This document shows, piece after piece, positions 11,179-42,901 of a stretch of 64,000 nucleotides of DNA (positions within the stretch are counted from its first letter, which is position 1; the number at the start of each line of letters is the position of its first letter). The notes beneath the pieces were generated by a model. That model saw nothing but the letters and a program-made list of their open reading frames with translations. It did not search any database and had not been told where the DNA came from. The position numbers were made by a program, and so were the translations under genes. The stretch comes from Bacteroidota bacterium (lineage in GTDB: Bacteria; Bacteroidota; Ignavibacteria; Kryptoniales; JAKASW01). Location: NCBI GenBank assembly GCA_021812985.1, contig JAKAMG010000007.1:1-64000 (forward strand). Direction: 5' to 3'.

Positions 11179-11352
11179 GGGAGCCTTTCGAAGAAGCGTC
11201 AATGCGACGTCAGCCGGGTTTGTCTCCGCATCGCCCGCGTAGCTCGTTGACGCTTTACGAGGAGATCCATACCAGCGCCGGTTGATGGAAGATGAAACGC
11301 CCGGGCCCGGGACGTCCGGCAACTATACAGGTAACGACATAGGAGTCTGCGA

Positions 11353-13115: not shown

Positions 13116-13118
13116 CCG

Positions 13119-13853: not shown

Positions 13854-13892
13854 CTTAATATTTCTGTTGAATAATAGGAGCTGGAAGGTGGA

Positions 13893-14615
13893 ATGGAATA
13901 CTTAAACTCGATAGCGAACATAAAGAACGGACTCATAGTGTCATGTCAGTTTGATGAAGACGACCCGTTCAATAAACCTGAATATGTGGCTCTCTTTGCG
14001 CTATCGGCCCAGATGGGCGGTGCGGCCGGAGTCAGAATAGAAGGACTGGAAAACATCAAAGCCTCGAAGGCGAAGGTCCAGCGCCCGATAATCGGTCTCG
14101 TGCAGTCGGCATACGAGGATGGTTCAGTTCTGATTACTCCAGACGTCAAGGATGTGGGTGAAATTGTCAGCGCCGGAGCGGATATAGTCGCGGTAGACGC
14201 TACTGAGAGAGTGAGACCTAACGGCCTCAATGGGTTTGAATTTCTCAAGAAAGTAAGGGTGGAACACCCCGGCACACTTCTCCTCGCCGATGTGTCAACT
14301 TTTGAAGAGGGAGTTCAGGCAGCGGAACTCGGGGCGGACCTTGTATCCACAACGCTCTCCGGTCACACGCCTGCCACGGCGAAAAGAGGGAGGCAGGGAG
14401 TGGACTTCGACCTGATAGAGAGGCTTTCCGAATCCCTCGTCGTTCCAGTGATCGCGGAAGGGAGGATACTACTTCCTGCCGAAGCAGCGCACGCACTCGA
14501 TCTTGGCGCGTATTCGGTCGTCGTCGGCGCGGCAATCACAAGACCGATAGTTATAACGCAAATGTTCCTCCACGAGATACAGACGAGAATGAAGAAGAAT
14601 GACCCGGAAGCTTAA
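13893..14615 (+). CDS. nanE: N-acetylmannosamine-6-phosphate 2-epimerase
   Basis: GLIVSCQFDEDDPFNKPEYVALFALSAQMGGAAGVRIEG, VDATERVRP, STTLSGHTP: NanE family motifs. Confidence 0.85.
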   Translation: MEYLNSIANIKNGLIVSCQFDEDDPFNKPEYVALFALSAQMGGAAGVRIEGLENIKASKAKVQRPIIGLVQSAYEDGSVLITPDVKDVGEIVSAGADIVAVDATERVRPNGLNGFEFLKKVRVEHPGTLLLADVSTFEEGVQAAELGADLVSTTLSGHTPATAKRGRQGVDFDLIERLSESLVVPVIAEGRILLPAEAAHALDLGAYSVVVGAAITRPIVITQMFLHEIQTRMKKNDPEA

Positions 14616-22551: not shown

Positions 22552-24351
22552 ATGGAAATATTTAATAACATTAAAGACTGGCTCCTTGAGCGGTTCCAAA
22601 AATTCGAATTCTCACAGGAACCGATGCACCTTCTCCTCGCGATAGTGACCGGCATACTCGCCGGTTTCGGCGGAATACTCTTTTACAAGATGATTCAGCT
22701 GGTGGAACAGATCATGTTCCACAGTCCAGCGGGATTTTTCGGACTCACCAACCTGATTAATCTTCATGGATGGCAGAGATACCTCATCATCCCAATAATC
22801 CCTGCAGTCGGTGGGATGATCGTGGGATGGATTACCATGAAGCTTGCTCCGGACGCATCGGGTGAAGGCGTTCCGATGGTGATAGAGAACGTCGCCAAGA
22901 AAGGGGGAATACTAAGCCCGTTTTTGGCCGTGACAAAGCTTGTGACTAGCGCGATATCCATCGGAAGCGGCGGCGCGGGAGGACGAGAGGGACCAGTCAT
23001 CGCCATTGGGGGTGCCATAGGTTCGAGCGTGGGACAAGTGTTCAGGCTGAATGAAGAGCAGATGAAATCGCTTGTCGGATGTGGCGCTGCCGCCGGTTTG
23101 GCGGCTGTCTTCAACGCCCCCATCGGAGGAGCACTCTTTGCGATGGAGGTCGTGATCGGAAGCCTGAACATGCAGACCTTCTCTCCGATCATAATCAGCT
23201 CGGTCTTCGGGACATTTGTCTCAAGGACTATCCTCGGGAACAAGCCGGTCTTTGTCATACCGACTTTCTCGCTCCGGAGCGGATGGGAACTGATTTTCTA
23301 CATTATTCTCGGCATCTTCGCCGGCTTCATTGGCATCTATTTTGTGAAGCTGTTCTACGCCACCGAAGAGTTCTTTGAGAACAAGAAATTCCCAGTCCAC
23401 AACAGAATTCTCAAGCCTGCTATCGGCGGACTTATCGTCGGAATCATCGGCATATATTTTCCCGAAGTGTTTGGATACACTTATCAGGGGGTAGACGCCT
23501 CACTGTACAGCCGCGACTCGTTCATGATACTGGCGGCGCTTCTCCTCTTGAAGCCCATTGCTACATCAGTTACCCTTGGCAGCGGAGGTTCAGGCGGAAC
23601 GCTCGCCCCTTCGCTCTTCATCGGTGCGATGGCAGGCGGCGCGTTCGGCAATATCGTCAATTTACTGGTGCCGGGTATCGCTGCCCCCCCCGGAGCGTAT
23701 GCGCTCGTCGGAATGGCCGCTGTCACGGGCTCAGTAGTCCAGGCCCCTCTCGCCGCGGCTATACTCGTATTCGAGATGACGGATAAATATGAAACTATCT
23801 TGCCCATACTCCTGGCGGTCGTCGCAGCTACCGTGATTTCCAAGAAGTATATGAATGGCTCGATATACACCATACGCCTTAAGCTGAAAGGGCAGTTTCT
23901 CGATGTGTACGGTCACGATGTGAATATACTCCGCTCGCTCAGCGTGAAAGACGTCATGAAGCCGCAGCTCGTTGCGGCATCGGAGTCAACGCGGCTCGCG
24001 GACCTCGTGGACATGATCCCCGAAAGTAATACGACAGTCTTCCCGGTCATTCGGCACGACGGCACTCTCTCAGGGACGATCTCATACGGAGATATACGCC
24101 AGGCTCTCACCGACGAATCTGTGAAGGACCTATTGGGCATACTTGTCGTGAAGGACATACTCAATCCGACTAAGATGACTGTAATGGAGGATCAGGATTT
24201 GTCCTCAGCGATGAAACTCATGTTAGATGCGGGAGTCCCTTCGATCCCTGTGATTCGGGAAGGCAACCAGCTCGCAGGTATGCTCTACCTGACTGACGCG
24301 AATCAGGCATACGAGAAGAAACTGTTGTTGAGCGAGATAGCCACAAACTGA
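22552..24351 (+). CDS. ClC family chloride channel/transporter with C-terminal CBS pair
   Basis: SGEGVP, GGAGGREGPVIAIGGAIGS, GSGGSGGTLAPSLFIGAMAGGAFG; two CBS-like segments at the C-terminus. Confidence 0.92.
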   Translation: MEIFNNIKDWLLERFQKFEFSQEPMHLLLAIVTGILAGFGGILFYKMIQLVEQIMFHSPAGFFGLTNLINLHGWQRYLIIPIIPAVGGMIVGWITMKLAPDASGEGVPMVIENVAKKGGILSPFLAVTKLVTSAISIGSGGAGGREGPVIAIGGAIGSSVGQVFRLNEEQMKSLVGCGAAAGLAAVFNAPIGGALFAMEVVIGSLNMQTFSPIIISSVFGTFVSRTILGNKPVFVIPTFSLRSGWELIFYIILGIFAGFIGIYFVKLFYATEEFFENKKFPVHNRILKPAIGGLIVGIIGIYFPEVFGYTYQGVDASLYSRDSFMILAALLLLKPIATSVTLGSGGSGGTLAPSLFIGAMAGGAFGNIVNLLVPGIAAPPGAYALVGMAAVTGSVVQAPLAAAILVFEMTDKYETILPILLAVVAATVISKKYMNGSIYTIRLKLKGQFLDVYGHDVNILRSLSVKDVMKPQLVAASESTRLADLVDMIPESNTTVFPVIRHDGTLSGTISYGDIRQALTDESVKDLLGILVVKDILNPTKMTVMEDQDLSSAMKLMLDAGVPSIPVIREGNQLAGMLYLTDANQAYEKKLLLSEIATN

Positions 24352-25154
24352 TGCTCTCGAACGCTGATGTGAAACGCTTGTCCGAATTGAAGGACAAAGA
24401 AGGCCGGAAGGAGCAGCGCCTCTTTCTGATTGAAGGGAAGAGGGCTGTGGTGGAGTCGTTGACTGGCGGCGCGGACATCAGGATGCTGATCGTCAGCTCG
24501 GGTGCCAGCCAGAGAAAGCTTTCCGATGTCTACTCGCTCGCCGAAGAGAAGGGGATAGCGATTGAGGATACCCCCGCGAACAAGTTCACCAAACTTGCGT
24601 CTACGGAAACGAGTCAGGGAGTAATCGCCCTGGCCGGTCTGACGGAGCTTTCATTGGACGAGTTCCTTTCTAAGGTGCGTCCCAAACGGGCATCCATCGT
24701 GCTCCTTCTCGACAAGATCTCTGATCCGGGCAACCTTGGCACGATACTTCGGTCGGCGGCGTGGTTCGGCGTCGACGGCGTGATAGTCTCCGCCGGCTCC
24801 GTTGACGCATACAATCCCAAGGTTGTACGCTCAGCCATGGGGGCGATCTGTCAGGTGGATGTGGTCCAGGATGTCTCGCTGGCTGGCGCGATTTCAGGTT
24901 TAAGCGAGATCGGGTTCGGCGTCTTTGCCTCAACTCAGGAAGCCGGGTTGAATTATGCTGACTACTCATACCCTAAGCGCGTGGCAGGCGTTTTCGGATC
25001 AGAAGCCACGGGTATAACCCCCGATGTCATGGGACTCTGTCCGACCAGTGTGGCCGTCCCGCGGGTGGGAAGAATGGAGTCACTGAATGTGGGGGTGGCT
25101 GCGTCGATCATCCTGTCTGAGATCGCACGGCAGAAGTTTGATTCAGGGGCCTGA
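24351..25154 (+). CDS. TrmH/SpoU family RNA 2'-O-methyltransferase
   Basis: LLLDKISDPGNLGTILRSAAWFGVDGVI, FGSEATGITPDVM, VPRVGRMESLNVGVAASIILSE. Confidence 0.92.
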   Translation: MLSNADVKRLSELKDKEGRKEQRLFLIEGKRAVVESLTGGADIRMLIVSSGASQRKLSDVYSLAEEKGIAIEDTPANKFTKLASTETSQGVIALAGLTELSLDEFLSKVRPKRASIVLLLDKISDPGNLGTILRSAAWFGVDGVIVSAGSVDAYNPKVVRSAMGAICQVDVVQDVSLAGAISGLSEIGFGVFASTQEAGLNYADYSYPKRVAGVFGSEATGITPDVMGLCPTSVAVPRVGRMESLNVGVAASIILSEIARQKFDSGA

Positions 25155-25426: not shown

Positions 25427-28400
25427 TTGAACCCCGAAGAGAATGTTTCCGTTCAGCACAACACGGCAGAAGAGCATAATGATCTCGGCGTGAGTTACTA
25501 TAATGCAGGCCGCTTTGAAAAGGCGCTTGAAGAACTTCTGATCGGGGCCTCGCTCAGCCGGAATTGGCGGATCCACAAAAATTTGGCGATTGCCCTGATG
25601 GGGCTTGGACATTACAGGGATGCTCAGGCCGTAATCGAGAATATCCTTCGACACCAGCCCGACGACGCAGAATCGCAGCAATTGCTTGACGACGCGGTTA
25701 AGAGAAGTGTTGAAGCACCCGGGTTACGCGCGGGGGTCGCAACAGCGACCGCCGTCATGCCCGAGGAAACATGCAACGTTTGCGGCGAGCGCAACAATTT
25801 TCGGGACACTACTCCGGAGAATGTCAGGGAAAGTCTCTGGTGCAACAGATGCAATTCGTTAAACGGCGACCGAATGATGATATACGCGCTGTCCAAATGC
25901 CTCGGATATGATGGACCTCTCGCGGGATGGGGGCCTAACAAAGCAATTAAGATTCTTGAGACGGATGGACACCGTGGACACCCGACATATCTCGAGCAGA
26001 AATTCGATTACCACAATACCTATTTCAAAACGGACGGTGTACCAAAGAATTTTGAGAAGATGGAATTTGCTGATTTGGAGAATCTCCCTTTCACGGATGA
26101 GCAATTCGACTGCGTTATTACATGCGATGTCTTTGAACACGTAAGGCTGCTCGACAAAGCTTTAATGGAAGTGTACAGGGTTCTCAAGAAGGGGGGCTAT
26201 TTCATTCTGCAGGTTCCCTTCAGCTACGGGCTCGAGAAAACCGTCACGCGCGTTCAGCCCGACGGGGACAACGACGCCTTCCTCCTGCCGGCCCAGTACC
26301 ACGGTGACAACTCGCTGGTTTACAGGGACTACGGACGAGACTTCCTCACTCATCTGTCCCTGCTTGGATTTACGGCTTTGTATATTGAGGGGGAATTTCC
26401 ACAATACAATGTGACTAATCAGAACATTATTGTCTGCACCAAGGCCGAGACCCTAGACACAGAAAATATGTTCAGCGAAAGGGAAAGGCAGACTCTCTTC
26501 ATCGAAAAGCATGATAATTTGACTGGCCGGGTTCGAAGCATGATCGAGAACCTGTGCAAGAGCGGGAGGGATGAATTCTCCGAGACTTCCCTGGACTACG
26601 ACAAATCCAAGCGTCATTACTATTTCGACCTTGGGCATGTCGACAGGATTGCTGAGACCCTCAGGCGCGCCTCACCGTATCTCGGTTCGCTCGACAGCGT
26701 TCTCGACATCGGGAGCATAGGCGACATTCCGTTGATTCTGAAGAAGTTATTCGGCGTAAAGAATATCTTCGCGAATTCACTTGACGGCGGCTATGTTGCA
26801 TACGGGGAAGGAAGAATCAAAGAGAGAGGCGAGTCAGACATCGAAGCGGAAGTGGATATCGCAAAGTGCGATATCGAAAAAGACGTCTTCCCGTTCGAGG
26901 ACGGCAGCCTCGATGCGGTCACAGGGTTTGAGGTCCTCGAGCATCTGCGTACTGACCCGATGTTCATGATGCGTGAGGTCAACCGCGTTCTGAAAGACGG
27001 AGGGGTCTTTATACTCACGACCCCGAACATCAATGCGTATCAGAACATGGTGAAGAGCATTCGCATGGATTCTCCATGCCTGTTCTCCACTTATCTAGCA
27101 GGAGGCAAGGGAATAGGTCACTGTAAAGAATACTCTATCAGCGAACTCGACAAGCTCTTCGTAAACAGCGGCTTTTCCGTACAGGAGATATCGACATTCA
27201 GTCCGTACTGGGTCGATCCTGAGATGTTCAAAGGATTTGAAGAACTGAAATCAATGCTGATAAAGAACGGATGGGATGAAAAGCTATCCGGTCAGGTTTC
27301 GTTTGTAGTCGGCATTAAGATTGGACGGCCCAAATACAGAACATATGAGCCGTTATACACTGCTACGGAAGAAGAACCCAGTGCGCGCAAATCTGTCGAT
27401 ACGAGCGAGAAGCCTGAAGATCTTGCGGAAGAGCCTGTGAGCGACGGGAGACACGATGAAGCGATCAAAGCTGTCGAAATCGCCATCGGGCGGGAGCCGG
27501 ATAACACCGGTCTCTGGTATAAATACGCCCAGCTCCTTCAGGATGCCGACCGGTTTGACGAGTCGATTGTTCAACTGACGAAGGTCACCTTTCTCGATCC
27601 AAATCATTCCGACGCGCACAACGATCTCGGTGTATTGTATTTCAGGAAAGGGCAGTACGATAAAGCTGTCGACCACCTTTTGAAAGCCCTGCCGTCAGAC
27701 ATTGGGCTTAAGGCTCACCGGAATCTTTGCAGCATTTACCTCCGTCTTGGATTGCGCGACGAAGCATTGGGCATATGCGGGGCCATCCTGAAACGCAGCC
27801 CGGGTGATGAAGAGGCATTGAAGACGATTTCACAAACCAAGACTCTCCCGACTCCGAATCCGGTCGACAACCAAAGTCCTCAGCAGGAGCCGGCCGTCTC
27901 GGAAGAGTACGAGCGCATTCCCTGTCCGTTCTGCGGATCGTATTCCTGCGAAGAAAGATATCGGGAGTACGGCGACATTGTAAAATGCTCGGTGTGCAGT
28001 ATCGTGTACGAGAGGACCCGGCTTACCGAAAAGGCCATGTATGATTTTTATCAGAAGTGGCCGGATATAAACAAGGACATGCGTTTGCCTCAAACCAGGC
28101 AGGAGGTCGCCGAAAGCGGTCTCCGAATGGACTATCTTCTCGATGAATTGATCGAGTTCATAAAGCCGTCAGGAACGTTTCTTGACGTCGGCTGCGGTTG
28201 GGGAGCGTTCCTGGACAACGCACGCTCAAGGGGATTTCGCCCCTTGGGGTTGGAGCTAACACAGAAGTGCGTCGATTTCGCAAACAATGAACTTCATATA
28301 CCGGTGATGAACTCCCAGCTGGTCGAAGCAGCCATTGATCCGAATTCTCTTGCGGCTGTCAGCATGAGTCATGTGCTTGAACACATTCCCAACCCGCGCG

Positions 28401-30697
28401 AGGCACTTTCGAAGATACACCGCATTCTCAAACCGGGCGGCATGTTCTTCGGGGCAGTTCCCAACATTGAGAGCCTTCGTTCGGAGAAGCTCCGCGAGAA
28501 ATGGCCGTGGCTCGCTCCCAATGTACATCTAGTTTATTACTCGCCGGGGACTCTGAAGACACAGCTCGAGCGCGCAGGCTTCGTGGTTCAACGACTCTAT
28601 ACAAAGAACCGCGATGGTGCCTTCAAAGAAGGAAGCCTGAGTTCCATGATCCGTGAGACCTGGGGACTCAATTCGGACGAGGAGGTCGCCGAGAAAGCGC
28701 GGGAACTGGAAGCGACAGGGTATGGTGATGAAATCCGCTTCTTTGCGAGCAAGCCGGCGGAGGATCCGGCTTCTCTCGGATCGAGAGCAAGGTCCGCGTT
28801 GGATAGTGCCGAACCTGAAAGGGAAAAGATACTCGAAGCGGAAGCTCTGATCATGGAAGGCAAACTGGAAGCCGCGGAGGGCATCCTGCTGGACCGCATC
28901 AGAATATACCCTTCCAACCTAGATGCCCTCAACGATCTTGCCGTCACTAAGATTCTTCAGGGAAAGAATGAAGAAGCGATTGTGCACCTAAGAAAGGTAA
29001 TCTCCATTGATCCGGAGAATCGGACTGCGAAGGAAAACATCCGGTTGATTCTGGAGAAGCTGGGTCAGGCCCTGGAAAGTGTCAGATCAGGAGGATCTCC
29101 TGTGCCGACAAACGGCAGCAAGAGGACAATTGCTCAAGCGGAAGAGTTGATGCTGGCGAAGCGCTACGACGAAGCCGAGGAACTCCTGGCGGGAATACTT
29201 ATCGGATCACCGTCTAATTTGGATGCATTGAACGATCTGGCCGTTTTACATTCGCTAAAAGGGGATCTTGAAGACTCCATCGCCCTGTTTAGCAAGGTTG
29301 TGCAGATAGATCCGGCGAACACAGTTGCAAGAAAGAACCTCGGACGTTTATTCCTTCAGGCGGGCAGAGTTGAGGAAGCTCTCAAGTCGTACGCGGCCGT
29401 ACTGGAGCAAGCTCCGAGAGACATCGAGACAATTTCAATAGTCGCAGAGATCTGCCGCTATAATGGAAGAGATTCTGACGCTATTTTTTTCTACAGAAGG
29501 TTGCTCGAACTCGATCCCAACAACGAACGGGCAATTGCACAGGTCAGAGGCGCGGTTGAAGACGAAACGATTCAGCAACTGACGAGACAGGTGCCGGTCC
29601 GAGTAACGAAAAAGGGTAATTCATCTTCTGTTGCATTTTCCGCGGAAGACTCCAGGCGATTGAATGCCGACGGCGTTCTTTGCCTGAACCCGTTCTATTT
29701 CTTTGAAGTCGATATTACCGGGGAAGTAGTCGTTTGCTGCACGGCATGGCTGAAACGCAGACTCGGTAACATTAAGTACCAAACAATTGCCGAGATATGG
29801 AACGGCGAGCCGATGAAGGATTTGCGGCGACGGATGTACCGAGGTGAATGGGAAGGCTGGTGCAGCGCGGACTGTCCCCGAATAGTAGAATACCGGCTTA
29901 ATAAGAAACTCATCCCATTCGATGGACTCGAAAGTAACGGTATGCTGACGCCACGATTAGTCAGCGAAATTAGATCTCAGAAGGATTCGCTTGAATCTAC
30001 TCCTACTCTTTTTAAACTGAGCGATTCAAAAACCTGCAACCTTTCCTGTATAATGTGCAGTGTGAAGCAGGACATCCGTCTCAAGGACGATCCAATCATG
30101 CTTGAAAAGCGGTCGAGGGATATGTACCAGTATCTTGATTCTGCGAAGACAGTGTTAATGAGTGGCAACGGCGATCCTTTGGCAAGAGCTGACACAAGAA
30201 CGTTGCTGATGAACTACGACGGGCACAACCCGGAATTGAAATTCAGTCTTGTTACAAATGCATTGCTTCTTCCGCGATACTGGGACAGAATCAAACACCA
30301 ACGCTTTGATTTCATAGACATCTCGGTAGACGCGTCAAGAAAAGAGACTTACGAGAAAATCCGTGTTGGCGGGAAATGGGAGGAATTACTCGGAAGCCTT
30401 TCTCTCGTAAAGGCAAATCAGGGTAAGTTCGAATCCGTGATCCTTAGCATGGTGGTGATGCGAAGCAATTACCGTGAGATCCCTTCGTTTATTGATTTCG
30501 CCGAGTCATACGGTTTTTACGCAATGTTCAGCAGAATTCACGGCATGTTTGGCGATGAGAACATCTTTGAATTGAATGATGCGGCAGCATTGGATGAGCT
30601 TCGCCAGATCGTATCGGAGGAGAGTTCGAAGCAAAGATCGGTTCAGGTACTCTGGCAAGATCTCATGGAATTCAGCAATCAAACGGTGATTGTTTGA
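25427..30697 (+). CDS. Giant TPR / three methyltransferase domains / twitch-SPASM-like / radical SAM fusion protein (1756 aa)
   Basis: TTG start preceded by AAGGAG. N-terminal TPR; CxxC..CxxC ribbon + MTase (FDCVITCDVFEHVRLLDKALMEVYRVLKKGGYF); second MTase (LDIGSIGD...LDAVTGFEVLEHL); TPRs; CPFCGS..CSVC ribbon + third MTase (FLDVGCGWGAFLDNA); TPRs; VVVCCTAWLKRRLGNIKYQTIAEIWNGEPMKDLRRRMYRGEWEGWCSADC SPASM-like; CNLSCIMC radical SAM CX3CX2C. Confidence 0.85.
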   Translation: MNPEENVSVQHNTAEEHNDLGVSYYNAGRFEKALEELLIGASLSRNWRIHKNLAIALMGLGHYRDAQAVIENILRHQPDDAESQQLLDDAVKRSVEAPGLRAGVATATAVMPEETCNVCGERNNFRDTTPENVRESLWCNRCNSLNGDRMMIYALSKCLGYDGPLAGWGPNKAIKILETDGHRGHPTYLEQKFDYHNTYFKTDGVPKNFEKMEFADLENLPFTDEQFDCVITCDVFEHVRLLDKALMEVYRVLKKGGYFILQVPFSYGLEKTVTRVQPDGDNDAFLLPAQYHGDNSLVYRDYGRDFLTHLSLLGFTALYIEGEFPQYNVTNQNIIVCTKAETLDTENMFSERERQTLFIEKHDNLTGRVRSMIENLCKSGRDEFSETSLDYDKSKRHYYFDLGHVDRIAETLRRASPYLGSLDSVLDIGSIGDIPLILKKLFGVKNIFANSLDGGYVAYGEGRIKERGESDIEAEVDIAKCDIEKDVFPFEDGSLDAVTGFEVLEHLRTDPMFMMREVNRVLKDGGVFILTTPNINAYQNMVKSIRMDSPCLFSTYLAGGKGIGHCKEYSISELDKLFVNSGFSVQEISTFSPYWVDPEMFKGFEELKSMLIKNGWDEKLSGQVSFVVGIKIGRPKYRTYEPLYTATEEEPSARKSVDTSEKPEDLAEEPVSDGRHDEAIKAVEIAIGREPDNTGLWYKYAQLLQDADRFDESIVQLTKVTFLDPNHSDAHNDLGVLYFRKGQYDKAVDHLLKALPSDIGLKAHRNLCSIYLRLGLRDEALGICGAILKRSPGDEEALKTISQTKTLPTPNPVDNQSPQQEPAVSEEYERIPCPFCGSYSCEERYREYGDIVKCSVCSIVYERTRLTEKAMYDFYQKWPDINKDMRLPQTRQEVAESGLRMDYLLDELIEFIKPSGTFLDVGCGWGAFLDNARSRGFRPLGLELTQKCVDFANNELHIPVMNSQLVEAAIDPNSLAAVSMSHVLEHIPNPREALSKIHRILKPGGMFFGAVPNIESLRSEKLREKWPWLAPNVHLVYYSPGTLKTQLERAGFVVQRLYTKNRDGAFKEGSLSSMIRETWGLNSDEEVAEKARELEATGYGDEIRFFASKPAEDPASLGSRARSALDSAEPEREKILEAEALIMEGKLEAAEGILLDRIRIYPSNLDALNDLAVTKILQGKNEEAIVHLRKVISIDPENRTAKENIRLILEKLGQALESVRSGGSPVPTNGSKRTIAQAEELMLAKRYDEAEELLAGILIGSPSNLDALNDLAVLHSLKGDLEDSIALFSKVVQIDPANTVARKNLGRLFLQAGRVEEALKSYAAVLEQAPRDIETISIVAEICRYNGRDSDAIFFYRRLLELDPNNERAIAQVRGAVEDETIQQLTRQVPVRVTKKGNSSSVAFSAEDSRRLNADGVLCLNPFYFFEVDITGEVVVCCTAWLKRRLGNIKYQTIAEIWNGEPMKDLRRRMYRGEWEGWCSADCPRIVEYRLNKKLIPFDGLESNGMLTPRLVSEIRSQKDSLESTPTLFKLSDSKTCNLSCIMCSVKQDIRLKDDPIMLEKRSRDMYQYLDSAKTVLMSGNGDPLARADTRTLLMNYDGHNPELKFSLVTNALLLPRYWDRIKHQRFDFIDISVDASRKETYEKIRVGGKWEELLGSLSLVKANQGKFESVILSMVVMRSNYREIPSFIDFAESYGFYAMFSRIHGMFGDENIFELNDAAALDELRQIVSEESSKQRSVQVLWQDLMEFSNQTVIV

Positions 30698-30723
30698 ACG
30701 GGGAATATTAGAGGAGGATTTGA

Positions 30724-33700
30724 ATGGAAGATGCAAGGCTTATCATAGCCAAATCATTGATTGATCAGCAGCGGTTTTTGCCGGCCAAGGAGCTGCTGCT
30801 TGAAGTCCTGAAGAGCAATCCGCATTCAACGATAGCTCTGAACAATCTCGCGTTCATCGATATCATGGACAGGCGCTATGGCTCTGGGCTGGACAGATTT
30901 GAAGATATCTTCACGATCGATCCATGGAACGAGACGGCGATTTACAACCTCAATGCTCTGCACGAACAATTGGAAACAGAAAACGCGAAATCAATCGCAA
31001 CCGCGAGAACAGATTACGATTCCGACTCGTTCCAGCAAACTCTGACAAGGACTCACCAACTGAGTAATAGCAAGAGAACGCTCGATTCACTTCCCGGAAA
31101 AGAATTCATCCGTTCTGGAAAGACATTGGCCGAAAATCTGAAGTCGCCTCATCTAGTTCTTATCCAAGCCCCCGGTTGGGGAGTATTGACTCCTCCTTTG
31201 GCCACGGCGATGCTTGCCGCATTTATTAGGAAGCATGGGTACAAGGTCCTGCCGCTTGATTTGAACATAAACTTCTACCTCACACGCGGGGAGAAATACA
31301 AGAACGTATGGGAAATTGAGCAGTCACTCTGGTTCTGGACCACCAAGTCCAAGGTCGATGAGTTTATTGCCGACCACGAACCGCAAATCCAACTGTATAT
31401 CGACTTAATCTTGGAATCGGGCACTAAGCTGGTGGGATTTACAATTTACCAGTCGTCTTTGCAGGTGAGCCTTTATATTGCCGAACGTCTCAAGAGCGTT
31501 GACCCTGGGATTAAGATAGTATTCGGCGGCCCGCAAGTGAGTAGGTTCATGGAAGGACAATCGGTTGTTCAGCAGGGTTGCGTTGATGCGGTCGCTCAAG
31601 GCGAAGGTGAGCTGACATTGCTTGATATTGTACAGAAAGTATCTTCAGGCGAGGATATTTCAAAATGTCCGGGAACGCTGGTTTTCATCGAGGACCAGGT
31701 TATAGATAATGGCGACAGGGAATTAATCGATGATCTGAATTCTCTACCATTCCCCGATTTTTCTGACTATAATTTTCAGTCGTACCGAGAACCCTCCAGG
31801 CTTCCAATCATGTCAAGCCGGGGATGTCCGAATCGCTGTATATTCTGCAACGAACGTCCGTTTTGGAAACGATATCGGCACGTCAAAGCGGAGCGCATCT
31901 TTGCGGAGATAACGGCTCAGTTGAAAATGTATCCTTTCCTGAGTTGGATCGATTTTCAGGACAGCCTCGTCAATGGAAAGCTTTCGGAGTTGGAGAAGCT
32001 CGCGGATCTTATAATTGAAAGCGGCTTGAAATTAGAATGGTCCGCGCAAGCAGTAATCCGAAAAGGAATGACGTACGAGTTCTTCAAGAAGATGAAGGCT
32101 TCGGGGTGCATTTGTTTGGCTTTCGGATTGGAGACACCTTCAAGCAGCCTGATGTTGAAGATTGGAAAAGGACTGTCAAAGGGAGCAGATCCGAATCAGA
32201 TTGTGAGGGACGGGTATCGTGCTGGCTTGACGTGTGCGTACAACTTCATGTTCGGCCTTCCCGGCGAGACCGATGAAGATGTGTTTGAAACGCTCGAATT
32301 CGTGAGAAGAAACCGTGATTGCCGCATAACCGTGAACCCAAGTCCGTGGTTCTGCAGCTTCGGCGCCGGCACGCTGGGTTTTGAAGATCCAGCGAAATAT
32401 GGAATCGATTTTTCCAAAGGCCGAACGTATTGGGAAGCCGACGGCGGAAAGAACAATTTTCTGCAGCGGTTGAAGGAGTTCGAAAATTTCTGCCGATTGG
32501 TAAAGGAACTAGGGATACATACAACATATCCGGCTGCTGAACTCCTGGACAGGTCTAGACAAATCGGTGACTATTATTTCAATAGCAAGCAGTATGAAAA
32601 AGCCGTTCCCTATTATGAGGAGTGGCTATCCAAAAATCCGACAGACAACGATGTAATGGCAAAATTATCCGAGTCTCGAGAACGCGTTGTCTCCGATGAA
32701 GCAAAGGGGGCGAAGCGAAACCAACCCCGACAGAGGATGGAGGCAGAGCTTATAGGCGAGATAGATCGGATGCTTGAAGTGGGCGACTACGATCGGGCTC
32801 TGGAAGCGGTGCAAGACAGCATCCTTGTTTACCCATCCAGTGCAAAGTTGATGTACCGTTGGGCGGAAGTCCATATCGGCAAGCAGGAATGGGACACGGC
32901 GGTCATGCGGCTTAACAACACGCTTGCGTTGGATCCCGCCCTCCAGGATGCCTATAACGACCTCGGAGTGCTATATGCGTCAACGGGGAAGAAGGAACTT
33001 GGATTAAAATGCTTCATCGAAGCGGTCAAGCGGGACGAGAACGATCGTGTCGCCATGAGGAATCTCGCCGCCACACTCATTTCGATCGGCCTTCTCGCGG
33101 AAGGGATCAGAGGCTACTTCACTCTGTTGAACAGATTCCCGGATGATCTGGGGACCCTCGTTGAATTGGGAAGAATTCAATCAACCTGGGGTAACGACAG
33201 ATTTGCCAGGGAATACTTCGAAGTTGCACTTCGGCTTAGCCCGGAGTTCACCAAGGCGCGAGAACTGCTCGTGTCGCTTGACAAACCCGGAAGAGCTATC
33301 AACACACCGGATAAGGCTCTGTCCGATCTGCTTGAAGAAGTGCGTTTCCCGAACAGGTCTCTGCTCAGGAAGGAGTTCGATGAAGACAAGATTGTCCTGG
33401 CCGCTTTGCCGGACTTCCTGATTGTCGACCCCACTTCGATCTGCAATGCGACCTGCATAACATGTTTTCATTCTTTCCTTGACGAAAAGTGGCAGGACCT
33501 GCCCAAGGACGCTTTCGAGAACGTGAAGCACTTGATCAGCACCGTGAACCAGATGAATCTGTTCGGAAGCGGTGAGGCTTTCGTTGCAAAGAACATCGAG
33601 TACTATATCTCCGAGGTGAAGAGGCTGAAGCGAAGAAACATGAGGGTGACTATTAGCAGCAACGGAAAGCTGCTGGGAAAGAAGCAGATCGACCTTGTCT

Positions 33701-34143
33701 CGGACCCGGGAATAATTTTGCAGATCTCGATCGATGCAGGTACCAGGGATTTATTCAACTATATACGGCGCGGGATAGATTTCGACAAATTCATGAAGAA
33801 CCTGCGTCTCTTCAAGGAAATGAAAGGGGACAAGGGGTATCCCGCGCTTCACTTCTCCTGCACGATATCGAAGCGCAACATCAATGAGATACCCAAGATT
33901 TTCGACATCGCGAAGGAAATCGGGGTCGATTATGTCGGATTGTACAACGAGTACGCGCTGGACGAGCAGGAGAAATCTTACCTTCTAGATGCCTCGGATG
34001 CACCAGCCTTCAACTCGATAAAGGCGCAGCTCGATTCTTACGGAATAAAATACAGCGATCATCTCACGTTCCTCGATGAGGCCACGCACGATGCGGTCTT
34101 CGAGTGGCACGGACAGGATGAGAAATTAAAGGAGCAAAACTGA
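30724..34143 (+). CDS. TPR / B12-binding-type radical SAM / TPR / second radical SAM fusion protein (1139 aa)
   Basis: N-terminal TPR; PPLATAMLAAFIRKHGYKVLPLDLN...GTKLVGFTIYQSSLQ...IVFGGPQVS (B12-binding fold), SSRGCPNRCIFCNE (CX3CX2C), FGLPGETDED; TPR array with YNDLGVLYASTGKKELGLKCF; second SICNATCITCFHSF (CX3CX2C). Confidence 0.87.
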   Translation: MEDARLIIAKSLIDQQRFLPAKELLLEVLKSNPHSTIALNNLAFIDIMDRRYGSGLDRFEDIFTIDPWNETAIYNLNALHEQLETENAKSIATARTDYDSDSFQQTLTRTHQLSNSKRTLDSLPGKEFIRSGKTLAENLKSPHLVLIQAPGWGVLTPPLATAMLAAFIRKHGYKVLPLDLNINFYLTRGEKYKNVWEIEQSLWFWTTKSKVDEFIADHEPQIQLYIDLILESGTKLVGFTIYQSSLQVSLYIAERLKSVDPGIKIVFGGPQVSRFMEGQSVVQQGCVDAVAQGEGELTLLDIVQKVSSGEDISKCPGTLVFIEDQVIDNGDRELIDDLNSLPFPDFSDYNFQSYREPSRLPIMSSRGCPNRCIFCNERPFWKRYRHVKAERIFAEITAQLKMYPFLSWIDFQDSLVNGKLSELEKLADLIIESGLKLEWSAQAVIRKGMTYEFFKKMKASGCICLAFGLETPSSSLMLKIGKGLSKGADPNQIVRDGYRAGLTCAYNFMFGLPGETDEDVFETLEFVRRNRDCRITVNPSPWFCSFGAGTLGFEDPAKYGIDFSKGRTYWEADGGKNNFLQRLKEFENFCRLVKELGIHTTYPAAELLDRSRQIGDYYFNSKQYEKAVPYYEEWLSKNPTDNDVMAKLSESRERVVSDEAKGAKRNQPRQRMEAELIGEIDRMLEVGDYDRALEAVQDSILVYPSSAKLMYRWAEVHIGKQEWDTAVMRLNNTLALDPALQDAYNDLGVLYASTGKKELGLKCFIEAVKRDENDRVAMRNLAATLISIGLLAEGIRGYFTLLNRFPDDLGTLVELGRIQSTWGNDRFAREYFEVALRLSPEFTKARELLVSLDKPGRAINTPDKALSDLLEEVRFPNRSLLRKEFDEDKIVLAALPDFLIVDPTSICNATCITCFHSFLDEKWQDLPKDAFENVKHLISTVNQMNLFGSGEAFVAKNIEYYISEVKRLKRRNMRVTISSNGKLLGKKQIDLVSDPGIILQISIDAGTRDLFNYIRRGIDFDKFMKNLRLFKEMKGDKGYPALHFSCTISKRNINEIPKIFDIAKEIGVDYVGLYNEYALDEQEKSYLLDASDAPAFNSIKAQLDSYGIKYSDHLTFLDEATHDAVFEWHGQDEKLKEQN

Positions 34144-34144
34144 C

Positions 34145-34375
34145 ATGGAGAAGAAATGCCCTGCACCCTGGAAAGTGTTTTTCGTCGAAGCAAACGGCAA
34201 TGCCCGCCCATGTTGTCTTATCAGCAAACCGATGGGAAACATCAACGAGCAGTCCTTTGAAGAAATCTGGAACGGAGAACTGTACCAGGAACTACGAAGG
34301 ACATTCGTGGAGCAGAAAAACTTCTGGCCGGAGTGCGTCGGTTGCTCGCACCATATGAGGACAGATATTATTTGA
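34145..34375 (+). CDS. Free-standing SPASM-like domain protein (76 aa)
   Basis: CPAPWKVFFVEANGNARPCCLISKPMGNINEQSFEEIWNGELYQELRRTFVEQKNFWPECVGC; ATG one base after the upstream stop with AAAGGAG about 10 nt upstream; in-frame TAA at 34127 excludes read-through in this frame. Confidence 0.82.
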   Translation: MEKKCPAPWKVFFVEANGNARPCCLISKPMGNINEQSFEEIWNGELYQELRRTFVEQKNFWPECVGCSHHMRTDII

Positions 34376-34467
34376 CCTTATTGGAAGTCTCTTGTTAGTG
34401 TACTGCGGGATACTCACGGTAATCGGCGAAAAGATTCCTATAAAAGACCAAAGGACAGAGATTCGAG

Positions 34468-37400
34468 ATGGAAAACCTGGAAAACAACTCCCGGCTTGAG
34501 AACGAAAACGGAATCAGAGAATACCAATCGGGAAATTTCGACAAGGCAGTCGCTCATTTCGAAATGGCGGCGCAATTGGACAACAGGAACATAGACGCAC
34601 GGAGGAACCTTGCAGATCTCTATCTTCAGCTTTCACGATACAGCGAGGCCGTCGGAGCCCTTGTCTCTCTCGTGAAAGATTACCCGAACGATACTGAGAC
34701 TCTTATTACTCTTGGAAACCTTTATCAGGAGGCGGGCAAATACGATGACGCCGTCGCCTTCTTCAAACGCGCATTGCAGGTGGATCCTGAAAATGGTGCG
34801 GCAGCTGGGGCACTGCGTCTTGCCAGCCGGCAGTTGACTCCGGGCACCTCACCGGAAGAATCTGAAACCGGACACCTGACGGAGGAGGGACGCCTTCCTA
34901 AAGTGTCGATCATTATTCCCGTTTATAACCAGGTAGCTTATACGAAGCAGTGCATAGAATCCGTGAAAAAGAATACAGGCATCAGAGATTATGAAATAAT
35001 CATCGCTGATGATGCCTCTACGGATGAGACCGCGGCATACCTTGAAACGGTAAGGGATATCGTACGCGTCATACGTAATCAAGATAACCTGGGCTTCATC
35101 TTGAACTGTAACAATGCCGCATCGCAGGCGAACGGGGAGTACCTTGTCTTCCTGAACAACGACACAATCCCGCAGCCTGGATGGCTCGAGGCGCTGCTTG
35201 AATTGGCCGAAGCCGATAGCCGCGTCGGAGTTGTGGGTGCGAAGATGATATGGCCCGACGGCAGACTCCTTGAGGCCGCGAGCGTTGTATTCTCCGACGG
35301 AACTGCATGGAACTTCGGACGCGGAGATACTCCAGACCGGCCGAAGTATAACCATGTCAGGCCGGTGGACTACGTGTCTGGAGGTGGCATGCTAGTCAGG
35401 AAGTCGGTCTGGAACGAGCTCGGAGGGTTCGATACTCGCTACTGTCCGGCGTACTACGACGATATCGATCTATGTTTCGCGGCGCGCAAGGCGGGCTATC
35501 AAGTCCTGTATACTCCGTTTTCCCGAATCATTCACTTCGAGGGAATGACCGGAGGCCGCGACGTGACCCAAGGCGTTAAGCGATACCAGGTGGTTAATCA
35601 ACAGAAATTTCGTGCAAAATGGGCGGCGGATCTTGCCCTCCAGTACGACAACACTCCGAGGAACGTCAATCGGGCATCCTGGCTAGGTGAAGGAAAAAGA
35701 ATCCTTTGGATCGATCACTCATTTCCTCTCCCGAATTTCAATTCTGGTTGTCTTCGAATGAATCATCTCATGAAGACGATGGTGGGGCTTGGACACAAAG
35801 TGACCTATGCTGCGCTGGTGAACCATGATCCCGGCAACTACAAAGTGGAAATGCAAAAAATGGGTGTCGAAACCGCTTGGCTGGGGTACGAAGGCTGGGA
35901 GTTTGCCGACATCACCAAGAAGGGAGCGGTGATAGAGAGTATCCTCAATGCCCTCGAAATCACTTCAAAAGGTTACGACATTATATATTTTTCCTTCTAT
36001 TGGGTTGCCATTCATTTCATTGATAAGATTGCGAAGCGACTGCCTAACGCAATCATTTACGTCGACTCTCACGATATTCACTTCCTGAGAACGCAGCGTG
36101 AGGCCGAGTTGTACGGCGATGAAGCGCATATTCTTCGGGCTCGCCAGACGAAGATAGACGAACTCGGCGTCTACTCGAAAGCCGATGCGGTTCTGACCGT
36201 CACGGAGCAGGACAAAGACGCCCTTACGGGGGAGCTCCCGGGTAAGCCGGTCTTCCTGATGCCCAATGTGCATGATGTTGTTCCTCGGGAAAGAGACTTC
36301 CGCGATCGGAAAGATCTGCTGTTCGTTGGCGGATTCAACCATACGCCAAACGTTGACGCCATGATCTATTTTTGCAAAGAGATCTTCCCGAAGGTTAGAG
36401 AACGCCTCCCGGAGTTGCGACTTTGGATCGTCGGCAGCAATCCACCAAATGAAGTGAAGAGTCTTGAAAGCGAATCCGTCACCGTGACCGGGTGGGTCGA
36501 CAAGACCAAGCCTTACCTGGACTCCTGCCGCGTATCGATAGCGCCGATTCGATATGGCGCCGGTATGAAAGGTAAAATCGGAGAGGCGATGTCGCACGGG
36601 TTGCCAGTGATCACCACGCAGGTTGGCGGCGAGGGAATGGGGATAATCAACGGTGAGCAGGCCCTGGTGGCCGACTCTGTCGATGAATGGGTGGAGGCGA
36701 TCGAGAGACTGTACACAAATCAGGAGTTGTGGAATCGTCTTTCGGAAAACGGTCAGCGCCTTATGGCGGAAAGATACAGCAGCGAGACAATGCGGAGGCG
36801 GGCGGAGAAGCTTCTGTCTTTCACCTCTAAGGAGGCATTGCACGCCGTATCAATGCCTGCAAAGACCTCGGACAATAGAGCGGGTGATACCGCAATTGGG
36901 AAAGCCAGCGGAACCGAAAAGAAGAAAAACATCCTGGTTATCGATCCTTTCCTGCCGCTGTTTGACAGGGCTGCGGGATCACTCCATCTCTTCAACATCC
37001 TTAAAGTCCTGAGAGAGCTCGATTTTAACGTCACATTCCTTGCCATCAACGGGGTGTTTCAGGAACGCTACGTGCCTTACCTGGAGGAAATGGGGATCGA
37101 AACATATGCGGGCGATCATGACGGGATGTCTTTTCAGGGATACGAGTCTTCCTACAGGAGAATAGACTATGCTAAATTCTTTCGGGAGAAGAATTTCGAC
37201 TTTGCCATCATCGATTTCTGGAACGTAGCCGCATACTACATCCCGTTGATTAGAAAATTCTCCCCGTTCACAACGATAATCGTGGACACTGAAGATGTAC
37301 ACTTTGTGCGTGAGTTGAGAGAAGCCCGTGTAAAAGACGATCAAGAATTGATGAAACGCGCGATGGAGAACAAGAAGAATGAACTTCTGGTGTATAGCGC

Positions 37401-39414
37401 GGCAGACGTTCTGTGGGTGGTAACGCAGGACGACAAACAAGCTATCCTGAATGAACTCAACACGGTCAAAGTGGAAATTCGCCCGGTCATTCATGAGCTG
37501 CCGAAGGTGAACCATTCATTCGATGAGCGAAACGGTATTCTCTTCGTCGGAAATTTCAGCCACCGACCCAACCTGGACGCCATTCAGTTCTTCGTGCGCG
37601 AAGTGATGCCGATCGTTCGGAAGACTATTCCGGACATACGCCTTCACGTGGTGGGAAACGATCCAAGGAATTCAGTCGCGCCGCTCGCTTCGGAAAATGT
37701 TATCGTCGAGGGATACGTGGAAGATTTATCGGAGTGTTACAATAATAGCAGGGTATCGGTAGCTCCCCTGAGATACGGCGCAGGTCTGAAAGGGAAGGTG
37801 GTCGAATCGCTTTCGTATGGCGTTCCGGTCGTGACTACCTCAGTCGGTGTTGAAGGAACTGGGCTGCGTGACGGATCAGAAGTCCTTATTGCGGACAACC
37901 CGGCCGATATCGCCGAGAAGATAATTCTTGCTTGCACTGATAAAGAATTGTGGACCAAATTGTCCGTCCAGGGGAGGATGGTCATGGAAAAAAAGTGGTC
38001 CTTCGAGGCGGGGAGAGAGAACCTGGAAGTCCTTCTGTCCCAGGACCGGCTTACACCGAGAAGTTGGGCCAACAAGCTTATCTCGATAGTCATCCTGACG
38101 TATAACCAGCTGGAATATACGAAGCTCACGATAGACAGCATCCGGAGAAACACGAAGCTACCCTACGAATTGATTGTAGTTGATAACGCTTCCTCTGACG
38201 GCACAGTTGAATACTTGAAGTCACAAAAAGACATTCATGCGATTTTCAACGAGGAGAATCTCGGCTTTCCCGCGGGATGCAATGAGGGTATAGAAGCCTC
38301 AACCGGCGATTACATATTACTTCTAAACAACGATGTGATCGTACCGAAAGAATGGCTGGAGGGTCTGGTTGAGTGTGCGCAGAGTTCTCCGAGAATCGGC
38401 ATCGTTGGGCCGATGAGTAATCGCATAAGCGGGTATCAGCTCGAACAGAAAGTCGGGTACAGGAAAGTCAGTCAGGTACAAGACTTTGCAGCGAAGTACA
38501 GGCGTAAAAACCGCAAACGCTGGATCGAAGTACCGCGGGTGGCCGGTTTCTGCATGTTGATCAAGCGCGATCTCATCGACAGGATCGGCGGCCTCGATAC
38601 CGCGTTCGGGATGGGGAACTGCGAAGACGATGACTTCTGTGTAAGAGCAAGGCTCGCGGGATACGGGACGGTCGTCGCCGGCGACGTCTTCATTCATCAC
38701 TTCGGTAGCGTAAGCTTCGGCAAGGATGGACTGGAGAAATACAAGGAATTCATCAGGGTGAACGAGCTTGTCTTCAAAGAAAAATGGGGAGTAACCCCGC
38801 TCGAGTGGTGGCGGGAAGGGAAACAAATAACGAAAAGCTCAGGCCTGTTTGTTCCTCTAAAACCTGTCGAAACCGAAAAGACCCTTGTTGCGCCCCAGCC
38901 TCCTACAAATGTTGATGTCGCCGAGTCAGTTCAACAGAACGCCACCGGTAAGACGATACTCGAAGACGGCGAGACAGATTCTCGATCGGACAGCGATGAG
39001 AACATCTCCGGCGACCTGACATCCGCGTACCATCATGCGCGCCAGCTCGCGATGGACGGCGACTTAGAGGAAGCAATTCAGTCTTTCGAAACATTACTTG
39101 AAGACAATCCAGCCCATTCCGGAGCACTGAACGATTTGGGGGCGCTATACTTCCAGAAAGGTCTAAAGGATAAAGCCTTGCGACTCTTTAAGGAATCGGT
39201 GGAATCATCTCCGCTAAATTTTGATGCATTGCGGAACCTGGCGGATCTTTACGTGGATTCAGGTAGGATCGACGAGGCGCTAATTGTCCTCAAGGATATC
39301 TTGACTAAGAAGCCCAATGATCAGGAGTCATTACAGAAGATCGGCGCGCTTTGCAACGCCTTAGGAAGGACCGAGGACGCAGCATTCTTCTTGGCTCGGA
39401 TCAATGAAGCTTAG
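34468..39414 (+). CDS. Giant TPR / GT2 / GT4 / GT4 / GT2 / TPR multidomain glycosyltransferase (1648 aa)
   Basis: GT2: [21 protein letters not shown]...[16 protein letters not shown]; two GT4 modules with [28 protein letters not shown] and [28 protein letters not shown]; second GT2: [21 protein letters not shown]...[17 protein letters not shown]; TPRs at both ends. Confidence 0.9.
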   Translation: [1648 protein letters not shown]

Positions 39415-39523
39415 GTGGGCTCGCGGGGCAGAGGCACGGAAAAGGATGAGCCGGGGCCATCGGTTGGTAGCCGGAGAGTTTTCCGGACGCTGCTAACATG
39501 TGCCGCCTTGGTGGACGGGCGAT

Positions 39524-40663
39524 TTGAGTAAGATTATTATCGACGGGCCTCTGGCCACTCTCAGCTCTGCTGCGATTATAAATCGTGCGCTGTTTCAGGG
39601 CCTTTCGAAGTTCGGGCATGATGTCTTCGCGAGTCCCGCTCACGGGAACAGCGTCATCCGCGGCGATGACGGCGATGGGGAATTGAAAATTGCGGCTCAA
39701 AAGGTTCGAGATGACATTGAGCCTGATATTACGATCAGAAACGTCTGGCCACCGCGTTTTGTCCGACCGCGTACTGGCAAATTGATTATGATTCAGCCTT
39801 GGGAATTCGGAAGTATTCCCCTGTCATGGATTACCGATTTCAACATGGGAGCCGATCAGGTATGGGTACCAAGCAATTTCGTGAGAGATGTATTCATCCG
39901 TGACGGACTCCCTACGGACAAAGTGCAGAGGGTTCCGAATGGTTTTGATCCGGAAGTTTTCAGGCCCGACGGCGCTCGATATCCCTTGAAGACGAAGAAG
40001 AGTTTCAAGTTCCTTTTTGTTGGAGGCGCCATCCCAAGGAAGGGGATAGATATTCTGCTGACTGCATACTCGTCTGTTTTTGGGTCCGTAGATGATGTCT
40101 GTCTTGTTATCAAGGACTTCGGTGCGGATTCCTTTTATAAGGAAATGACGTTCAGAAATAAGATCCTGGCATTCGCCGAAAGGCCTGGGGTGGCGGAAAT
40201 TGAATACATCGACTCCACCTTGACACAATTGGATCTTGCCGCCTTATATCGTTCCTGCGACGTCCTGGTACACCCTTATCGTGGCGAGGGCTTCGGGCTC
40301 CCGATTCTTGAATCTATGGCCAGCGGTACGCCGCCGATGGTGACAAGCGGAGGACCGGCGCCCGAATTTTGCAGAAGCGAATACAGTGTCCTCCTAAAGT
40401 GCGACGAGAAATTGCTAGACGACAAGCAAGTCTTCGGAATGCAGACTGTAAGCTATCCTTCGATATTCAAAGTGAGTTTGGATGATCTAGCGGAGAAAAT
40501 TCTCTGGGCAAGTAAAAACCGAAATGTACTAAGAGAGCTTGGAAGAAACGGCGCATCGTATGCCAGAGAGCGTTGGACGTGGAATGCGGCGGTGAGAGAG
40601 GCTGATAGAAGATTAAATGAATTGGCGGAGAACCGACAACCGGCCTCACCATTGAGCTTATGA
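39524..40663 (+). CDS. GT4 family glycosyltransferase
   Basis: KKSFKFLFVGGAIPRKGIDILLTAY, YRSCDVLVHPYRGEGFGLPILESMASGTPPMVTSGGPAPEF. Start ambiguous: TTG 39524, or ATG 39500 per the ORF track. Confidence 0.88.
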   Translation: MSKIIIDGPLATLSSAAIINRALFQGLSKFGHDVFASPAHGNSVIRGDDGDGELKIAAQKVRDDIEPDITIRNVWPPRFVRPRTGKLIMIQPWEFGSIPLSWITDFNMGADQVWVPSNFVRDVFIRDGLPTDKVQRVPNGFDPEVFRPDGARYPLKTKKSFKFLFVGGAIPRKGIDILLTAYSSVFGSVDDVCLVIKDFGADSFYKEMTFRNKILAFAERPGVAEIEYIDSTLTQLDLAALYRSCDVLVHPYRGEGFGLPILESMASGTPPMVTSGGPAPEFCRSEYSVLLKCDEKLLDDKQVFGMQTVSYPSIFKVSLDDLAEKILWASKNRNVLRELGRNGASYARERWTWNAAVREADRRLNELAENRQPASPLSL

Positions 40664-41643
40664 CCGGCACTCTGGATGAATTTATCAGGAAAACGGACGG
40701 TAGGTACTACTTTCTAAACGACGAGCTGCTGAAGGTAGCATTGTCCATTTTGCAGGTCGACTCTGAGCCCCGCAGAGTCGAGCTAATCAGGAGATTTATG
40801 TCTCCCTTTGCGGGTATCGGGGATTTTCGTGTACACTTCGACGGGGCGGGCGACGCACTCCTTTTATTGTCGACCTTCTATGATAAATCCCCTCATTCTT
40901 CAATTGTCAGTGTGACGAAGTCTCCGGATTCTGCGAAGAGTCTATTCGAAGCTTTCCCGGGACTGGAAAGGATTTATATCCTTCCATATCCGCAGAATTA
41001 TATCATCCATGTTTTATTGAGAAGGCTGTTTAAAGGGATGGCGAATTGTCGCGGAATGGGCGTGACGCCCGTTGATCCTGATTATTTTAGGGAATGGGAA
41101 AACGGTCTTGACATTTCTGCAAAATACGGCGTGATCCGTCACCCACGATGGGTCGATATGTTCATGGGCCAGGACTCTGAATCCGCCAATCAGGTGGTCA
41201 TCCAACCAGTAGGCGGGATCTCCCCCCTTGACAGCTCTTCGAGGAAGATGATCCGCAATGACGAGCTGAAGGAAATTATTGGGCTTCTGAATGGACACGG
41301 GATTAGACCTGCGATAATCGGAGTGCCTGAAGAAAGACCTCTGTACTCCATCGAAAGCCTCGAATATGCTGACCACAGGGGTATGGTATTCGCCAAGCAA
41401 ATGATACTAATAAGGAATGCTAGGCTCTTCATAGGAGCCGACTCGTGGGGAAAGACTTTTGCGGCGTTATGCGAGATTCCATCGATTGTGTTCCATTCCT
41501 TGAGGGGGGAGCAAAGAAATGGTCTGCCGGAAGTTGGGGACAACGTTTTCCTCAAACCGTGGCCATCCATCAGCGTTGTCAATGAGGTGGATGAATTGAG
41601 GCGTCAGCTGATTATCCGCAGGATTCTTCAACCTGTTCTGTAG
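40660..41643 (+). CDS. GT9-like (heptosyltransferase-fold) glycosyltransferase, divergent
   Basis: QVVIQPVGGISPLDSS, RNARLFIGADSWGKTFAALCEIPSIVFHSLRG resembling the GT9 C-terminal half; overlaps the upstream GT4 by ATGA. Confidence 0.6.
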   Translation: MTGTLDEFIRKTDGRYYFLNDELLKVALSILQVDSEPRRVELIRRFMSPFAGIGDFRVHFDGAGDALLLLSTFYDKSPHSSIVSVTKSPDSAKSLFEAFPGLERIYILPYPQNYIIHVLLRRLFKGMANCRGMGVTPVDPDYFREWENGLDISAKYGVIRHPRWVDMFMGQDSESANQVVIQPVGGISPLDSSSRKMIRNDELKEIIGLLNGHGIRPAIIGVPEERPLYSIESLEYADHRGMVFAKQMILIRNARLFIGADSWGKTFAALCEIPSIVFHSLRGEQRNGLPEVGDNVFLKPWPSISVVNEVDELRRQLIIRRILQPVL

Positions 41644-41781: not shown

Positions 41782-42901
41782 ATGTTCGAACCCCAGAAAC
41801 AGAAGGCCTCCGAGTTGAAAACCAGGATTGACAACCTACGGAGGTTTCTTTGACGTCGATGGCAAACGCGACGAGATAGAAAAACTTCACAAGGATACGC
41901 TGGAGCAGAGTTTCTGGGATGACAACCGCGCTGCTCAGCAGGTCATGGGTCACCTCACGGATCTCAAAACCTGGGTCGACGAATGGGATGAGGCGAGCAA
42001 GAACGTCACCGATGCCGCCGCGTTTCTTGAACTCGCCGAGGAAGACGGGGACGAATCCCATATTACCGATATCGAGTCCGAGTTGGCTCGCGCTGATAAG
42101 CTCGTCTCGGATCTCGAGTTCAAGAAGATGCTGGGAAATGAGGACGACGACAAAAACGCCATTTTAACTATTCATTCCGGAGCAGGCGGTACAGAGGCCC
42201 AGGACTGGGCTCAGATGCTCATGAGGATGTATGTCAGGTGGGGTGAGCGGAGCGGCTTTAAGATGGACATCGCCGATATACTCGACGGTGAAGGAGCCGG
42301 CATAAAGAGCGTCACGATAGAGGTGATCGGGAAGTATGCGTTCGGATACCTTAAGGCCGAAAACGGCGTTCACAGGCTCGTAAGGATATCACCGTTCGAT
42401 TCGAATGCGCGGAGACATACCAGCTTTGCCTCTGTATTCGTCTATCCCGAAGTCGAGGCGGACGTCGAAATTGAAATCGACCCCAAGGATATAATATTTG
42501 AAACGTACAGGTCAGGCGGTCACGGTGGCCAGAACGTAAACAAGGTCGAGACTGCAGTTCGGCTCATCCATCAGCCAACCGGAATCGTGGTGGCGTGTCA
42601 GCAGGAAAGGTCGCAGTTTCAGAACCGGGAACGCGCCATGAAGATGCTCCGGTCCAGGCTTTACCAGGTCCGCAAGGAGGAGGAAGAAGCCAGGAAGAAT
42701 GCCATCGAGGGGACCAAGAAGAAAATTGAGTGGGGGAGTCAGATAAGGTCGTATGTATTCCATCCGTACAACCTTGTTAAGGACCACAGGACGGGAGTGG
42801 AGACAAGCGACGTGCATTCGGTCATGGATGGCGACATAGACGAGTTCATTCGGGGCTTCCTCATGGAGTTCGGCCTGGCTAACGGAGAAGGGGCAAAATA
42901 A
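41782..42901 (+). CDS. prfB: Peptide chain release factor 2 with programmed +1 frameshift
   Basis: Frame 1: ATG TTC GAA CCC ... CGG AGG TTT CTT TGA ([23 protein letters not shown]); +1 shift at CTT-TGA-C gives ...[19 protein letters not shown]. Main body has [12 protein letters not shown] and [19 protein letters not shown] (GGQ). Confidence 0.94.
41839..41854 (+). promoter_or_regulatory. prfB programmed +1 ribosomal frameshift site
   Basis: CGGAGGTTTCTTTGAC: internal SD-like GGAGG immediately upstream of slippery CTT TGA C, as in E. coli prfB. Confidence 0.92.

Follow-up and report, generated by a model that had tools for sequence, protein, structure and literature searches.

Six co-directional genes spanning positions 25427-41643 of the window, the 64,000-nucleotide stretch of Bacteroidota DNA analysed here, pack methyltransferases, radical SAM enzymes and glycosyltransferases into three giant TPR proteins and raise the question of what such a block makes, and on which acceptor. 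The original prediction described an undescribed kind of locus in which TPRs scaffold the assembly and modification of a glycan; it correctly recorded no transporter, polymerase or substrate gene in the block, and it left the product open. The scaffolded glycan locus is supported by the comparisons below, and an appendage glycan was among the options then listed; the product is now very probably a flagellin glycan. The block is highly likely to be a flagellin O-glycosylation island, in which the TPRs would dock the enzymes on flagellin in the cytoplasm. The missing transporter, polymerase and substrate genes would then be explained by cytoplasmic glycosylation followed by export through the flagellar machinery. 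The probable substrate, the variability of the site and the mosaic make-up of gene 4 could not be read from the window by itself.

All six ORFs lie on the + strand, three of them encoding the expected giants (1756, 1139, and 1648 aa). Pfam and NCBIfam bear out the domain tally, with three methyltransferase, three radical-SAM, two SPASM-like, two GT2, and three GT4 domains and many TPRs; each radical-SAM centre carries the CX3CX2C motif (Table 1). Elsewhere in the window (9985-15609), genes for a class III aminotransferase, a beta-eliminating lyase, and a 2,4-diaminopentanoate dehydrogenase-like protein lie close together, possibly as an amino-acid (ornithine-type) fermentation cluster.

Table 1. 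Features of the six-gene block and its borders (window coordinates).
Feature	Position	Strand	Length	Description
RNA methyltransferase gene (left border)	24351..25154	+		Type judged from sequence; adjoins island in congeners
Gene 1	25427..30697	+	1756 aa	TPR - MTa - MTb - TPR - MTc - TPR - SPASM - radical SAM
MTa, gene 1	25754-26461	+		Methyltransf_11/23 stretch (Pfam)
MTb, gene 1	26534-27391	+		Methyltransf_11/23 stretch (Pfam)
MTc, gene 1	27947-28756	+		Methyltransf_11/23 stretch (Pfam)
SPASM, gene 1	29681-29878	+		Pfam 42.7 bits, cut-off 21.5
Radical SAM, gene 1	30026-30502	+		Pfam Radical_SAM; CX3CX2C at aa 1537
Gene 2	30724..34143	+	1139 aa	TPR - B12-binding + radical SAM - TPR - rSAM2
B12-binding domain, gene 2	31399-31626	+		PF02310 41.2 bits, cut-off 32.1
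First radical SAM, gene 2	31813-32304	+		PF04055 93.2 bits; CX3CX2C at aa 368
Second radical SAM (rSAM2), gene 2	33418-33984	+		Radical_SAM (Pfam); CX3CX2C at aa 907
Gene 3	34145..34375	+	76 aa	Stand-alone SPASM/twitch-like protein
Gene 4	34468..39414	+	1648 aa	TPR - GT2a - GT4a - GT4b - GT2b - TPR (Pfam, NCBIfam)
GT2a, gene 4	34882-35682	+		
GT4a, gene 4	35692-36882	+		
GT4b, gene 4	36910-38055	+		
GT2b, gene 4	38059-38877	+		
Terminal TPR, gene 4	38983-39411	+		
Gene 5 (GT4c)	39500..40663	+	387 aa	GT4 glycosyltransferase (Pfam)
Gene 6	40660..41643	+	327 aa	Putative glycosyltransferase, no family hit
prfB (right border)	41828..42901	+		Named from sequence

Gene 1 joins three methyltransferase stretches to a C-terminal radical-SAM unit. 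MTa and MTb have homologues in G133, a genome from another family (57 and 45% identity, respectively), and MTc has homologues in congeners (47%). The C-terminus shares its SPASM-then-radical-SAM order with NF033640 (twitch-domain radical SAM) and scores 81.2 bits against that model, under the curated cut-off of 170; the closest PDB match of the radical-SAM part, a weak one (3e-4), is cytosylglucuronate decarboxylase, whose substrate is a sugar nucleoside.

Gene 2 carries a B12-binding domain, missed by the original prediction, followed by a radical SAM domain with its CX3CX2C motif, the arrangement of a B12-binding radical SAM enzyme (B12-rSAM). This part matches CysS (2.7e-11) and is 54-56% identical to its counterpart in G133; rSAM2 is 57% identical. 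Gene 3, the second of the two expected SPASM-like modules, scores 25.9 bits against TIGR04085 (NCBIfam), just below the cut-off of 27. It starts after the gene 2 stop in a different reading frame and has a Shine-Dalgarno-like AAAGGAG of its own. Its G133 counterpart is also a separate gene of 76 aa, at the same place after rSAM2; the enolases of the two genomes are 63% identical. The division of rSAM2 and SPASM between two genes is real, since the stand-alone SPASM gene recurs in G133 at 83% identity; among 391 genomes of the class, these two are the only ones in which a short frame standing alone matches it over its full length.

The third giant, gene 4, is a mosaic, because in trees the window GT2a groups with G133 (98/100), apart from the congeners, and the window GT2b is nested in the congener clade (100/97). 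Identities follow the same division: GT2a-GT4a is 66% identical to G133, and GT4b-GT2b-TPR about 61% to congeners. The front half was probably acquired from outside the genus and joined to a native back half. The PDB hits listed for gene 4 do not include GmaR. GT4c, encoded by gene 5, has homologues in congener islands (39-53%), and several relatives have gene 6 joined to GT4c-like domains in one fused protein. The GT9-like domain originally assigned to gene 6 is not supported: the protein has no Pfam or NCBIfam match, a profile alignment to the GT9-type protein encoded at 21408-22544 gives no match (hhalign probability 0.4%), and the AlphaFold model (pLDDT 36) is too poor to use.

The RNA methyltransferase gene and prfB flank the same site in congeners, where they enclose different giants of about 1000-3400 aa. 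Most congener islands have a common core of GT2a-like, GT4b, and GT2b domains (about 50, 60, and 70% identity, respectively), and in several of them the terminal TPR, GT4c, and gene 6 are present as well; the methyltransferases and upstream glycosyltransferases vary. The island of G002 includes a 1118-aa ORF with a B12-rSAM homologue (27%). In G007 the flanks are almost directly joined, and a 117-aa GT2b fragment (corresponding to gene 4 aa 1265-1381, 58%) lies just before prfB; G008 has no GT2b, and its site falls at a contig end, so that emptiness is not seen directly. Judged from these comparisons, the block occupies a hypervariable site where species swap enzyme modules. Some of the genomes compared are fragmented or mixed assemblies; a mixture of strains is suggested for G006 by its two prfB-linked islands (L051, L052) and for G001 by its three enolase genes.

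In G133 the same enzymes are encoded by consecutive genes, MTa-MTb-TPR-rSAM2 (1192 aa), SPASM (76 aa), TPR-B12-rSAM-TPR (665 aa), and GT2a-GT4a-GT2b (1091 aa), and their contig has a flagellin fragment at its end. Between this island and the flagellin fragment lies a 951-aa ORF on the opposite strand with no Pfam hits (L125:10033-12888). Domain fusions and order differ between G133 and the window, and the set travels together; relatives thus do not show the scattered, non-co-conserved fusions that the original prediction had named as an observation that would refute it. The giants are also unlikely to be assembly fusions, because independent genomes show these module orders again and the block contains no long direct DNA repeats. 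Assembly fusion or frameshift was rejected on the architecture repeated in relatives and the split SPASM gene of G133, and TPR DNA repeats as recombination sites were rejected on finding no direct repeats of 40 bases or more in the block.

The case for flagellin comes from co-occurrence and from linkage. Among 149 genomes of the class, 24 have a strong GT2b match (above 200 bits), and all 24 are flagellin-positive, compared with 53 of 149 overall (Fisher 2.4e-13); these genomes represent 12 genera in 7 families, and at the genus level the figures are 12/12 versus 32/80 (4e-6), all of which serve as guides only, the genomes being related, not phylogenetically independent, and in many cases fragmented. 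Gene 6, used as a second, independent tracer, gives the same picture: all ten matching genomes are flagellin-positive, and in G112 gene 6 lies about 5 kb from flagellin. Physical linkage is stronger evidence for flagellin than the counts. Of the 16 GT2b giants encoded outside the genus, 12, from five families, have a flagellin gene no more than about 10 kb away, and in order-mates (L062-L065) they are directly beside fliC. The largest ORF of this type among those seen has 3744 aa and three or more GT2 domains (L128:1494-12728).

Within the genus the island is not near fliC; in the window genome the two are on separate contigs (C20 and C28). Of the 13 genomes in the genus, only G007 and G008 lack Flagellin_N matches; FlhA is missing in both and also in the less complete, flagellin-positive G006. 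The sequences indicate that loss of the flagellum is accompanied by decay of the island. The GT2b orthologue is absent from the islands of three flagellated congeners (G002, G011, and G012). Two candidate modes of control were rejected: sigma-28, for which no box is present in the window, whereas fliC has one, and sigma-54, for which sigma-54-like scores are at chance for the window genome.

A block that makes lipopolysaccharide, capsule or exopolysaccharide, with TPRs that merely hold the enzymes together, is the alternative that survives best, and it is improbable. O-antigen and capsule loci typically vary in content while keeping their place in the genome, and the GT2 and GT4 domains of the island resemble exopolysaccharide enzymes (EpsD, HpsN, and TIGR03087; NCBIfam); but the block has no flippase, polymerase, initiating phosphoglycosyltransferase or exporter, and such a product does not account for the strict flagellin co-occurrence, the fliC linkage in other families or the erosion of the island in a flagellin-less congener.

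Flagellar gene clusters elsewhere in the window genome supply candidate partners for the island. The conserved cluster that contains fliC also holds a GT2-TPR gene (334 aa); a second GT2-TPR gene (506 aa; L111:13393-14913) is near flgL. The 506-aa protein has the GmaR-type arrangement, an N-terminal GT2 related to GmaR followed by TPRs (Pfam GT2 + TPR), and its best PDB match is GmaR itself (22ao, 6.4e-34, aa 4-194). Several families of the class have related GT2-TPR proteins of roughly 500-527 aa encoded within the flagellin cluster or close to it (L068, L118, L121-L126, L063). The flagellin of the window genome has 32% Ser/Thr at residues 131-205 versus 12% in the first 130, which is only compatible with glycosylation. 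Between a histidine kinase gene and the fliC-adjacent GT2-TPR gene lies a gene for a 1410-aa protein (L110:11253-15485, on contig C28 of G000) whose sole domain is a terminal response-regulator; it is conserved (33-58%) in the flagellated congeners examined.

That the island modifies another protein, such as an S-layer protein, pilin or adhesin, and correlates with flagella only by shared lifestyle, is less probable still: TPRs could bind any acceptor, and the block holds no acceptor gene, but GT2b giants directly adjoin fliC in several families and the GmaR-like partner is in the flagellar cluster. A pathway to a secreted small molecule or glycopeptide (RiPP-like), with radical SAM/SPASM and B12-radical-SAM tailoring, is scarcely credible. 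In its favour, the B12-rSAM scores 119.8 bits against the RiPP C-methyltransferase model TIGR03975 (NCBIfam), below the cut-off of 281.85; but no precursor gene or exporter is seen, glycosyltransferases make up most of the block, and the enzyme set accompanies flagellin in G133.

Flagellin glycosylation by the island is likely to proceed as follows. Cytoplasmic flagellin would probably be primed by a GmaR-like GT2-TPR enzyme from the flagellar clusters, and the giants would dock on it through their TPR blocks, as FlmG and GmaR suggest. The GT2, GT4, and gene 6 domains would extend the sugar chain. Methylation and remodelling of sugar residues are predicted, from the domains, to fall to three kinds of enzyme: the SAM methyltransferases, the B12-radical-SAM enzyme, and two radical-SAM/SPASM units, of which one is divided between two genes. 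The modified flagellin would leave by the flagellar export apparatus, for which no flippase, polymerase or transporter is needed, and module exchange at the hotspot may give species different flagellar glycans.

Calling the locus undescribed claimed too much: Pseudomonas syringae and Clostridioides difficile are already known to have flagellin glycosylation islands that include large glycosyltransferases and methyltransferases. The available portion of the P. syringae report describes fgt1/fgt2 at fliC and a separate viosamine island with the vioM methyltransferase and the 1173-aa VioT (PMC3927599), and thus a similar pairing of fliC-near transferases with a separate, strain-variable island that includes a very large glycosyltransferase and a methyltransferase; radical SAM, B12 and SPASM enzymes are absent from that portion, as are TPR giants that combine several enzymes, whereas the giants of the window join methyltransferases and radical-SAM units to TPRs. 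Type B flagellin glycosylation in C. difficile likewise uses GT2-family enzymes, one of them fused to Methyltransf_11, with accessory enzymes alongside (PMC5207246); according to the excerpted account these are encoded beside fliC, with no TPR giants or radical SAM. Listeria GmaR, a GT2-TPR flagellin O-GlcNAc transferase, combines both domains in one protein, as does its flagellar-cluster match in the window genome, but has 637 aa and an antirepressor domain, in contrast to the island giants with their many enzymes (PMC9638930). Caulobacter FlmG (596 aa), which uses pseudaminic acid, is a modular protein with a single GT-B domain and a TPR domain, but without fused methyltransferases or radical SAM; docking of the island TPRs on flagellin is proposed because the FlmG TPR domain binds flagellin (PMC7591256).

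No described equivalent combining TPR, radical SAM, and flagellin glycosylation was found in open papers. With modest confidence, somewhat favouring it over its negation, we read the island as a case of flagellin glycosylation that draws on radical-SAM and B12-radical-SAM chemistry. In this reading one radical-SAM enzyme would be naturally split, with a separate 76-aa protein as its SPASM half, and the chemistry would travel as an interchangeable cassette within TPR mega-enzymes that recombine between bacterial families. The small SPASM gene, so similar across families, offers a compact and clean way to ask whether a radical-SAM enzyme can function when divided into two chains. If the reading is correct, an unexplained block of giant enzymes would become a testable flagellin-glycan pathway, radical-SAM and B12 chemistry would be added to flagellin decoration, and the congener islands, one copy of which decayed after flagellar loss, would provide a natural module-swap series in which the evolution of multi-enzyme proteins through recombination could be followed.
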